64,000 nt of DNA from Sphingomonas xinjiangensis. Its GTDB lineage: Bacteria > Pseudomonadota > Alphaproteobacteria > Sphingomonadales > Sphingomonadaceae. The notes under the pieces were generated by a model. That model did not search any database, was not told where the DNA came from, and saw only the letters and a program-made list of their open reading frames with translations. Location: NCBI RefSeq assembly GCF_014199255.1, contig NZ_JACIJF010000003.1:186001-250000 (forward strand), given 5' to 3'. Positions 3,386 to 56,199 of this stretch are shown piece after piece. The position numbers and the translations under genes are program-made. Every line of letters starts with the position of its first letter. The first letter of the stretch is position 1.

Positions 3386-4306
3386 TTACAATGTCGGCGT
3401 GGCGAATTCGTCCAGCGCCAAGGGGAAGACCTTGGAGCAAAACGCACAGTCGACGCTGATCATGCCCTGCTCGTCCGCCATCTCGGCACGGTCCTCCGCC
3501 GGGAACTTGGTGAGCACGCCGCGATAATAGTCGGCGCTGCACCGGCATCCGCGCGTCAGGTCGACGCCGCTCAGCACGCGCACCTCTCGCTCCTCGTTGA
3601 ACAGGCGCCACACCAAATTCTCGAGCGGGATCGACGCGTCGCCCAGCTCGTCGTTGCCCATGGTGCTCGCCAGCGCCTCCACGCCGCTCCATTCCGGGTG
3701 ATCCAGGCGCACATGCAGCCGCTCGCGGCCGACCTCGCCCTCCGGCAGATGCTGGAGGAACAGTCCACCCGCCACCAGCTTGCCGTCCGCCCCGCGGCGG
3801 TGCTGCAATCGAATGAGGCTGGGGATCTGCTCGGACTGGAAGAAGTAGCTCTGCGCCGCTTCCGCCAGGCTGTCGCCGTCCAGCGGCACGATGCCCTGGT
3901 ACCGCTCGCCGCTGGTCGTCTGGTCGAAGGTCACCGCCAGATAGCCTTCGTTGAACAGCGACTTCATCGAAGGCTTCTTGCCCAGGCGGCTCAGCCGCTC
4001 GGCATTGTACTGCACATAGCCGCGCAGCGCGCCATTCTTGTAGTCGCATACCAGCAGCTTGATCACGCCGCGCTGCGTCTGCGCCTGGATGGTCAGCTGC
4101 CCCTCGCCGTTCTTCAGCGTCGAGCCGAGCAGCGCCGCCAGCGTCACCGCCTCGGTCAGGATCGCCTCGATCGGCGCGGGGTAATTGTGCGCCGAGAGGA
4201 TCTGCTCCAGCGCCGATCCCAGCCGCACCATGCGCCCGCGCGCATGGCTGTCGGGCAGGGTGAAGCCGATCACGCGGTCGGTGTCATGGACGGGTGCGGT
4301 AGTCAT
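3386..4306 (-). CDS. hslO: Redox-regulated chaperone Hsp33
   Basis: A cytoplasmic holdase activated by oxidation or unfolding. The C-terminal zinc/redox switch is visible as CRC, then 27-30 residues later CAFC; oxidation of these Cys releases zinc and opens the chaperone. The start is set at 4306 (MTTAPVHDTD) because GGAG lies about 9 nt upstream; an in-frame start nine codons earlier gives only a basic tail. 306 residues, normal length. It is the last gene of argD-argF-hslO, an order common in alphaproteobacteria. Confidence 0.95.
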   Translation of the reverse strand: MTTAPVHDTDRVIGFTLPDSHARGRMVRLGSALEQILSAHNYPAPIEAILTEAVTLAALLGSTLKNGEGQLTIQAQTQRGVIKLLVCDYKNGALRGYVQYNAERLSRLGKKPSMKSLFNEGYLAVTFDQTTSGERYQGIVPLDGDSLAEAAQSYFFQSEQIPSLIRLQHRRGADGKLVAGGLFLQHLPEGEVGRERLHVRLDHPEWSGVEALASTMGNDELGDASIPLENLVWRLFNEEREVRVLSGVDLTRGCRCSADYYRGVLTKFPAEDRAEMADEQGMISVDCAFCSKVFPLALDEFATPTL

Positions 4307-4424
4307 CGAACGTCTCCGCCGTCCGCGGCCCACATGGCACGGCCATGCGCGGTCCAGTCGAACGGATATGTTGGGGTCTGAGCAAAGATAGGGCGCGCAC
4401 GCCCGACTTCAACTCAGCCGAGCC

Positions 4425-50472: not shown

Positions 50473-50528
50473 AGTCTTGCTCCTGCCTCGCTGCGCCCCA
50501 TGTAAGGCCGGGCGCGCTTGAAACCAGC

Positions 50529-50543
50529 GAACAAATCTGGAAC
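50529..50543 (+). promoter_or_regulatory. SOS box (LexA site) of uvrA
   Basis: GAAC-N7-GAAC, the alphaproteobacterial LexA direct repeat, is exact, at 10 bp before the uvrA start codon. It should repress uvrA until DNA damage inactivates LexA. It also lies 57 bp upstream of the divergent gene. Confidence 0.8.
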
Positions 50544-50553
50544 AGATCACTCT

Positions 50554-53484
<2,931 letters not shown>

Positions 53485-53891: not shown

Positions 53892-53937
53892 AACTCGCCC
53901 GCCGCACCACCGGCCAGACCCTCTATATCCTCGACGA
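53892..53937 (+). pseudogene. 46-bp diverged copy of an internal uvrA segment
   Basis: Matches uvrA 53150-53195 at 42 of 46 positions, in the same orientation. Three of the four differences fall at third codon positions, so the segment keeps the encoded [13 protein letters not shown]. It is too short to be a gene and lies at the left edge of the AT-rich TIR islet. Probably a remnant of a uvrA gene from another strain, left by recombination. Confidence 0.75.
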
Positions 53938-53975: not shown

Positions 53976-54732
53976 CTATATTGCTCCGTATCTCTTCAAC
54001 AACGCCAGATGTTTTTCGAGTTTATCACTATCCAAACTCGCATCTAAGTTGACATTGACATGAAAAATCGCCTTCGAAGAGCGTTTCTCCGCGGCTTCAC
54101 GCATATCGGTTAGTGAATCTCCGTCTTCACTATTTCGCTCTTCGGTTGATTCCTCATTGGCGTCCTGTTCATCGCCTGAAAGAAGAGCGCCGGCGCTTGC
54201 TGCAGTCTTATGTGATATTTTATCTCCGTCTACGAACAGCAGCCCTCCTACTGTCAACGAGGACACATAAACGCTTATGGCAGCTTCTAGATTGTCTGGA
54301 TGAACATTCAGTTCTGCCGCCCGCTGTTTTAGCTTTGCGGCTGTAACAGTGTCCCCGTGGAACGTGTCAAATAAAGATTTAAATAGAACAGGCGCTAAGG
54401 CAGCTTTAGATAACAGTTGATCCAGTTCTTCACGGGGGGGGGGCGACTACAATATCTTTTGCAAGTCGTGTAGCGAAATATGCGTCTTTCGAACCATCCA
54501 TCAAATTGAACTGTTTCAACGCCGACGCCTTTATTTTGCCTCTAGGCCCCTTGGATTCGACCACGCTAGCATAAATAATCTCAGCCGACTGTGGGCCATT
54601 ATGAGTTTTAGCGACTAGCTTTCTCGCCCATTCGACGGCCTCTTTTAAGCCGTAACGCGGAAATCGAGTGCCGCCTTTCGGTGGGCTGCCCTTCGGTGGC
54701 TGCCGCTTCGTTCCAGTTGCACTGTCTGCCAT
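53976..54732 (-). pseudogene. Partner protein of the TIR gene, interrupted by a C10 tract (possibly phase-variable)
   Basis: Starts with ATG at 54732, 2 bp after the TIR gene's stop. The first 100 residues have a basic, Pro/Lys/Gly-rich N-tail, then PRYGLKEAVEWARKLVAKT and GKIKASALKQFNLMDG. At the C tract (54434-54443 on the plus strand as G10) the frame ends in TGA. With nine C it would run on as APPREELDQLLSKAAL to a stop at 53976, a 251-residue protein ending NVNLDASLDSDKLEKHL. The first half has the look of a small nucleic-acid-binding or winged-helix protein; no family is recognised. Length and phase fit an on/off tract or a homopolymer error. Confidence 0.65.
54434..54443 (+). repeat. 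Homopolymer tract (G10 on plus, C10 on the coding strand)
   Basis: Ten G in a row inside the partner gene. The reading frame is closed at 10 and open at 9. A tract this long is rare elsewhere in the window; slipped-strand mispairing or a sequencing error are both possible. Confidence 0.8.
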
Positions 54733-54734
54733 TG

Positions 54735-55673
54735 TTAGTTGCCCTTCATCGCAGAAACGAGATCAGCTAAGCCAGCCTTGTAAGATAAAGAAAAATCGGC
54801 ATATTTTTTATCAGAAATGGGCGCCGGCATCTTGGTATCGTCGAGTTTAAGGGGGAGGATATGAACCGCCCGTCGTTGAACTTCGTTGATTAGCGCACCG
54901 TTAAGCTCTTTTTTCACCCATTCGCTATCAACGGATGCTTTACTCACTGCCAAGAGAAAAAAATCAGACTCTGCTAATCCTTGGCTTATCCGCTCTGGGA
55001 TAGACTCCCCAACGCGAATTCGCTGCTCATCAAGCCAAACATCTATTCCAGCCGCCTTTAGGTCGGCCGCCAATTGCCTTACGAATGGCTTGTCGCTTGA
55101 ACTATGAGAAAGGAACGCAACTCGGCTATCTTTATTTGCTCCGTGACGCTCCACCTTTGCTGCCGCAGCAGAGTCTACAAGATCCTCTTGAACCAGTCCC
55201 GGTTTTAAGGCGTTTAGCGCCTCTGCCCACGCTAACATCGGCGCGTAATCGGCAATGTTAAAAGGGACGATTCGGTTAACGGTCGCTGCTTTTCTCATCG
55301 CGGCGTCCAGTGGATCTCCCAGGCTCATGAACTGCCGAGCGCTAACCAGTATTGGCAGACGAACCAGCGCCTCTCTGACGACATCTCTCTTCTGATCACC
55401 AGTGCCTTGGTAAGGATAAGATGTCAGCAATATATATCCCGTACCCCGCCTGTCGACGATGCCTAAATGATTTGCGTTCTTTAGAAGTTTACCAGCCGTC
55501 CTCGGATCTATACCTGCAAACTGCGCGATCTGGGCCGTAGAAGCCTCGTCCATCCACGCGACAGCGTCCAGTACGGGAAACAAGCTCTCGACCTTGGCTG
55601 ACTCGAACCGGACAGTCGGATCGTTCTCGTTCCTAGTGGTCGACTTCTTGGCTGTGCTCTTATTCAGCGCCAT
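54735..55673 (-). CDS. Winged-helix and TIR-domain protein (candidate anti-phage effector)
   Basis: 312 residues. Residues 30-85 look like a winged-helix (VAWMDEASTAQIAQFAGIDP, LKNANHLGIVDRRGTGYIL). The C-terminal TIR domain (residues 184-310) has SRVAFLSHSSSDKPFV, VWLDEQRIRVGESI and the catalytic-type Glu256 in the WVKKE segment. Bacterial TIR domains cleave NAD+ in Thoeris and other immune systems, so this is a plausible abortive-infection effector. The gene is AT-richer and uses more AAA/TTT codons than its neighbours, a sign of transfer. First gene of a two-gene islet with the partner 2 bp downstream. Confidence 0.8.
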   Translation of the reverse strand: MALNKSTAKKSTTRNENDPTVRFESAKVESLFPVLDAVAWMDEASTAQIAQFAGIDPRTAGKLLKNANHLGIVDRRGTGYILLTSYPYQGTGDQKRDVVREALVRLPILVSARQFMSLGDPLDAAMRKAATVNRIVPFNIADYAPMLAWAEALNALKPGLVQEDLVDSAAAAKVERHGANKDSRVAFLSHSSSDKPFVRQLAADLKAAGIDVWLDEQRIRVGESIPERISQGLAESDFFLLAVSKASVDSEWVKKELNGALINEVQRRAVHILPLKLDDTKMPAPISDKKYADFSLSYKAGLADLVSAMKGN

Positions 55674-55803: not shown

Positions 55804-56199
55804 ATGCCCCACCTCCCCACCAACCCCGCCCATCTCGGCCTCGGCGCCACCGCATCGGTCGAGCCAGAGTTCACCGACGAAAGCTGGTACGCCGCCTACT
55901 CGGCGCGCCACGCCGCCGACGGGATCGAGGGCCGGCTCGTCTCGCAATACAGCTTCGATCAAAGCTGGGACTCGTGGGAGGTCCACCCGCACGGCGGTGA
56001 ACTGGTGATCTGCACCGCCGGCACGCTGACGCTCCACCAGGAGCATCCCGACGGCAGCACCCACACCATCATCCTCCACGCCAACGACTATGCCATCAAC
56101 CCGCCCGGCACCTGGCACACCGCCGATGTGCCCCCGGGCACCACCGCCACCGCGATCTTCATCACGCCCGGCGAAGGCACCACCCATCGCCGGCGCTGA
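55804..56199 (+). CDS. Cupin-domain protein
   Basis: 131 residues, one cupin barrel. WEVHPHGGELVICTAG is the first metal-binding motif (His..His..Glu) and INPPGTWHTADVP the second, with one further His. It marks the return to GC-rich DNA right of the islet. Probably a small enzyme or binding protein of unknown substrate. Confidence 0.8.
   Translation: MPHLPTNPAHLGLGATASVEPEFTDESWYAAYSARHAADGIEGRLVSQYSFDQSWDSWEVHPHGGELVICTAGTLTLHQEHPDGSTHTIILHANDYAINPPGTWHTADVPPGTTATAIFITPGEGTTHRRR

Follow-up and report, generated by a model that had tools for sequence, protein, structure and literature searches.

Switching of bacterial defence genes by poly-C tracts is already known in kind. For the brxX gene of BREX, phase variation through a homopolymer has been suggested (PMC6326788), and homopolymer switching has been described for restriction-modification genes of types I and III, the 'phasevarions' (PMC12707154). 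In the excerpts of both reports, the rationale given is a mixture of on and off cells (PMC6326788, PMC12707154). According to the excerpted text of another report, C/G tracts longer than 8 bases were above chance in two Bordetella genomes under a second-order Markov model, and the tracts under study included the G10 of bapC (PMC1891110). In Helicobacter canadensis, poly-G was described as a cause of truncation and C-terminal switching, and homopolymer indels were described in M. tuberculosis, as stated in partial texts of those reports. Among the papers listed in literature searches, none dealt with a phase-variable TIR pair, going by titles and the openings of abstracts.

The DNA analyzed here is a stretch of 64,000 nucleotides of Sphingomonas xinjiangensis (contig NZ_JACIJF010000003.1, positions 186,001 to 250,000), referred to as the window. 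It includes a tract of ten C within a gene that lies next to a TIR gene and that we call the TIR partner. The tract, its effect on the reading frame and the full-length frame were observed. The leading reading, which we hold to be about evenly balanced between right and wrong, is that a slippage-prone poly-C tract in the second gene of a two-gene TIR operon turns the full-length partner on and off reversibly.

The C10 tract and the reading frame of the partner

The features of the locus are listed in Table 1, together with the tracts of the same assembly that were used as controls. An earlier note on this DNA had claimed that ten C lie inside the partner gene with a TGA right after them, and both points were confirmed: the plus strand has G10 at this position, within a minus-strand gene that begins at 54732, and the translated ten-C frame ends in ...VVAPPP, followed by the TGA. 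The 251-residue protein claimed for nine C was also obtained, with its stop codon at 53976-53978. The claim that nine C is the full-length state stood in part, since nine is not the only such length. A script that varied the tract from 6 to 13 bases yielded products of 250, 251 and 252 amino acids for C6, C9 and C12, of 99, 100 and 101 amino acids for C7, C10 and C13, and of 111 and 112 amino acids for C8 and C11. The full-length product came from one tract length in three, and in silico a change of one base in length toggles between the full-length and the truncated partner. Past the tract, the partner frame is open for 151 codons, a length reached by simulated sequence in 30 of 20,000 cases, and the other two frames have 11 and 14 stops.

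Table 1. Features of the TIR locus, in window coordinates, and control tracts of the same assembly, by locus.
Feature	Position or locus	Strand	Basis or detail
uvrA, convergent with the TIR pair	50518..53484	+	NCBIfam equivalog, 1574.8 bits
46-base stretch at the island edge, sharing 91% identity with a segment inside uvrA	53892..53937	+	Sequence comparison
TIR partner gene, nine-C reading, 251 aa, without Pfam, PADLOC or NCBIfam match	53976..54732	-	ORF and homology
TIR partner gene, assembled ten-C form, 100 aa, TGA directly after the tract	54430..54732	-	Sequence
C10 tract, homopolymer that decides the frame of the TIR partner	54434..54443	- (G10 on +)	Sequence
TIR gene, 312 aa, TIR_2 at residues 187-305	54735..55673	-	Pfam
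Control tract, 9 bases, in frame	L001 (G000 C2)		PAS histidine kinase, PAS domain spans the tract
Control tract, 10 bases, in frame	L002 (G000 C4)		GspD secretin, matched residues 26 to 648, tract at 331
Control tract, 10 bases, in frame	L004 (G000 C9)		Y-family polymerase-like protein, domain begins after the tract
Control tract, 9 bases, in frame	L010 (G000 C25)		462-residue frame without family match

The steps of the leading reading would be as follows. Slipped-strand mispairing during replication would add or remove one C, and cells with nine, six or twelve C would make the full-length partner (about 251 residues). The sequenced copy, in which the ten C of the assembly lead to a stop after 100 residues, would represent the truncated state, and loss of one C by slippage would yield the 251-residue form. 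Most likely, the partner would be needed for the action of the TIR effector as a sensor, adaptor or activator, most simply as a sensor or activator. Ten-C cells would then be defence-off and able to revert.

The nucleotides at the end of the tract could also permit a programmed event, either a +1 shift of the ribosome within the prolines that precede the TGA or slippage by RNA polymerase, through which both the 100- and the 251-residue proteins would be made. The run ends CCC CCG TGA, and a stop that follows codons where a +1 shift costs little pairing favours recoding. However, no stable structure was found after the tract (z 0.67), and the 11 homologs described below have open frames without a C run at the site. 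We regard recoding as very improbable.

The TIR protein, its partner and their relatives

The stop codon of the TIR gene lies 2 bases ahead of the ATG of the partner. The TIR_2 domain of the encoded protein was matched with an E value of 2.5e-28 (Pfam), and the similarity of its N-terminal part to HTH domains stayed below the cut-off (E 0.05). A W-x3-E motif is present, in which W252 and E256 align with the W and E found in three TIR chains of known structure, including that of AbTIR; the aligned glutamate is presumably the catalytic residue of the domain. The protein carries the signature of bacterial TIR NADase effectors, and NAD cleavage is its putative activity. The TIR domain is the one feature from which we infer a candidate defence role for the pair, including the 'costly defence' of which the earlier note spoke. 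A relative of the N-terminal part was found in its own genome only, among 397 genomes of the family, 398 of the phylum and 376 of the class, a sampling that may omit the Qipengyuania genome described below. The TIR protein had no match in phage records and no relative in viral contigs scanned by two short patterns. A plasmid of Salmonella (NZ_CP045959.1, positions 4001-4335) holds an unannotated, broken remnant in two pieces that is 61.8% identical to TIR residues 85-211, and the same match was found in a second Salmonella plasmid.

The nine-C protein had matches in 4 of 396 genomes of the order, that of the window included. Its close ortholog is an intact partner of 245 amino acids in Qipengyuania xiamenensis 1XM1-15A, also of the Sphingomonadales, with 42% identity. 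The Qipengyuania partner overlaps the end of a 303-amino acid TIR gene, which is intact and 56% identical to the TIR protein of the window over 290 residues. Because of the position of the partner and its pairing with a TIR gene in two genera, the two proteins probably function together. When the partner was compared with this ortholog, 41 of 88 aligned residues were identical before the tract (residues 1-97) and 59 of 148 after it (101-251), and the pattern of change by codon position was alike in both parts. The similar identity and codon-position pattern on either side of the tract give no sign of decay. Judged by its sequence, the full-length partner frame is a real gene.

More distant relatives of the partner were found in 10 other genomes of the 295 searched in the genus, one per species, and in 2 further genomes from the search of the order; no second close copy was present among the 295 genus genomes. 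The 12 distant stretches (3.1-7.5 kb) had no frame of at least 90 amino acids that was TIR-like at E 1, and the partner family is therefore broader than the pair. The related proteins at these loci (L030-L041) have 238-345 amino acids in the 11 with a phmmer hit, and no convincing Pfam or PADLOC family was found in the 10 that were scanned. An alignment (A5) was made of 12 rows, namely the window, Qipengyuania and 10 of the 12 distant loci, which are 17-20% identical to the protein of the window; the loci left out were L037 (345 amino acids) and L038 (without a phmmer hit). At the site of the tract, 10 of the 11 homologs agree in length with the nine-C reading, and the Qipengyuania protein is shorter by one residue. 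A C run is present at the site in none of these 11, of which only one is a close ortholog; G/C runs there do not exceed 3 bases, or 5 elsewhere in the gene, and one homolog has A6 at the site. As far as this alignment goes, C10 is not a conserved switch.

The partner had no family match in Pfam, PADLOC (E 1) or NCBIfam. Among the rows of A5, one member matched PEP_mutase in Pfam (E 0.0033) and another an AAA lid (E 0.055), both of which were taken as chance, and no PADLOC family was found for the 12 rows at E 0.1. The structure predicted for the full partner, together with its one close ortholog, was poor (mean pLDDT 43) and mostly helical. Paralogy of the two proteins was not supported: hhalign, with shallow profiles, gave the partner a probability of 0.2% in comparisons with the whole TIR protein or with the N-terminal part. 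Searches with the partner gave no match in plasmids and phages and no relative in viral contigs scanned by two short patterns, and the DNA had no match in E. coli genomes.

The Qipengyuania pair is also convergent with uvrA, 18 bases from the uvrA stop codon, and insertions may have occurred repeatedly at the 3′ end of uvrA. The gene at 55804-56199 of the window was searched in 120 relatives and matched in 14 genomes, its own included; uvrA was in none of 15 stretches (2.0-3.4 kb) around it, and hence no empty site was found.

Chance, control tracts and the length of the tract

The claim that the gene is AT-richer proved correct, with a GC content of 0.485 in the partner vs 0.652 in the window. 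The TIR gene has 0.51, the island of 1704 bases has 0.50, and third-position GC is 0.90 in uvrA vs 0.40-0.52 in the genes of the TIR pair. The G10 exceeds every other G/C run in the window, where the sole other run of at least 8 is one C8; the second-longest G/C run in the island has 5 bases. Runs of at least 9 occurred in 7, 0 and 4 of 3000 islands simulated with Markov models of order 1, 2 and 3, respectively. The C10 is well above chance for this AT-richer island, and it stands out because its surroundings are AT-richer.

Across the genome, 20 overlapping pattern matches were merged into 12 G/C tracts of at least 9 bases, of which 6 are 10 or 11 long. With models trained on the window, the expected numbers at orders 0, 1, 2, 3 and 5 were 250, 46, 9.1, 11.4 and 0.3 for tracts of at least 9, and 82, 12, 1.9, 2.4 and 0.02 for tracts of at least 10. 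At orders 2 and 3 there was no genome-wide excess of tracts of at least 9 (12 vs 9.1 and 11.4), and those of at least 10 were about threefold over expectation (Poisson 0.012 and 0.037). Three simulated genomes for each of these two orders had 4-12 tracts of at least 9 and 1-3 of at least 10. Whether a genome-wide excess is seen depends on the Markov order.

The earlier note had called the tract a classical phase-variation signature, and this description holds to a degree. The tract lies in the gene, is above chance locally and decides between a truncated protein and a full one that has an intact ortholog; however, it is shared by none of the homologs, and the number of tracts of at least 9 across the genome is close to the order-2 and order-3 predictions. 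In the one assembly available, the sequence claim is confirmed and phase variation is plausible, with little support for selection for switching beyond the tract itself. The same two observations, a tract that is not conserved and a genome without an excess of tracts of at least 9, speak for a plain recent frameshift, in which this strain would have lost the partner and its tract would be only a mutational hot spot rather than a selected switch. Acquired defence genes are commonly lost. Yet the 251-codon reading and the 312-codon TIR gene contain no other lesion, so that any loss must be recent, and a ten-base tract is still mutable and could revert. Such a loss seems to us distinctly improbable.

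Base calling and assembly are error-prone at long homopolymers, and the true tract may have nine C and the partner be intact. A miscalled length would agree with the rest of the partner gene being clean and the full frame otherwise intact. Against it, the other tracts of 9-10 bases that lie in long coding frames elsewhere in the assembly, two of each length, all keep the frame (4 of 4; Table 1), a small number in which the polymerase-like protein is family-matched only after its tract. The part of that frame before the tract is supported by the codon score, and its start is one that we recognise as ImuB-like. A change of frame was found at only one of five coding tracts, that of the TIR partner. 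The four in-frame controls speak mildly against assembly errors being general and in favour of a correct length, and we consider a miscall somewhat unlikely.

The remaining 7 of the 11 other tracts were kept outside this frame control on the codon score and as frames without clear coding across the tract; for five of these seven, the frame was scanned against Pfam and no match was found. L006 was rejected as a frame-changing tract since it sits between two genes in opposite directions, the right-hand one of which we take to be thymidylate synthase. At L005 (G000:C9:76842), a G9 is located just upstream of a minus-strand open stretch that contains MKKILAAF close to its beginning, and this G9 may be a promoter or leader tract. 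The frames of the PAS kinase, GspD, the polymerase-like protein and the protein without a family are further candidates for variation in tract length.

If the ten C are true, the cell is alive although its TIR gene is intact and the partner truncated, which speaks against the full partner being an essential antidote. Should reads turn out to be mixed in length, as the reading of reversible slippage would have it, the locus would provide a case of stochastic on/off control acting on a TIR defence pair, and the partner would be what decides whether the TIR protein is armed. The wider proposal, an undescribed TIR defence pair of the Sphingomonadales with a poly-C switch in the partner, an intact effector and coexisting armed and disarmed cells, is doubtful at present.

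Comparison with known systems

Among TIR systems, the pair resembles Thoeris in that a TIR protein belongs to a two-gene unit, and there was a weak match to ThsB_TIR (21.6 bits against a cut-off of 21.2). It differs in that the TIR domain is C-terminal here, after a different N-terminal part, and in that the partner matches no ThsA or other PADLOC model. Identity with Thoeris was ruled out by the partner, for lack of a ThsA match. NCBIfam ThcB4 scored 44.5 bits against the TIR protein, far under its cut-off of 220. The best PADLOC match of the TIR protein was the candidate system PDC-S66 (E 1.2e-24), in the second half of the model (147-240 of 282); this match spans only the TIR part (182-275 of 312), and the partner has no PADLOC match. 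No curated defence system that matches both genes of the pair was found.

With regard to the tract, the likeness to bapC of Bordetella is a coding tract of ten bases. In the excerpt of that study nine tracts were genotyped in 90 isolates (PMC1891110), and here the comparison is with one assembly. The likeness to brxX of BREX and to the restriction-modification phasevarions, as these are presented in the excerpted reports, is an in-gene homopolymer whose length eliminates or restores the product (PMC6326788, PMC12707154). Unlike those systems, the gene concerned here is a TIR partner, the second gene of its pair, and the tract is found in 0 of 11 homologs and in one assembly. By its mechanism, a switch in the partner would join the known homopolymer-switched defence genes.
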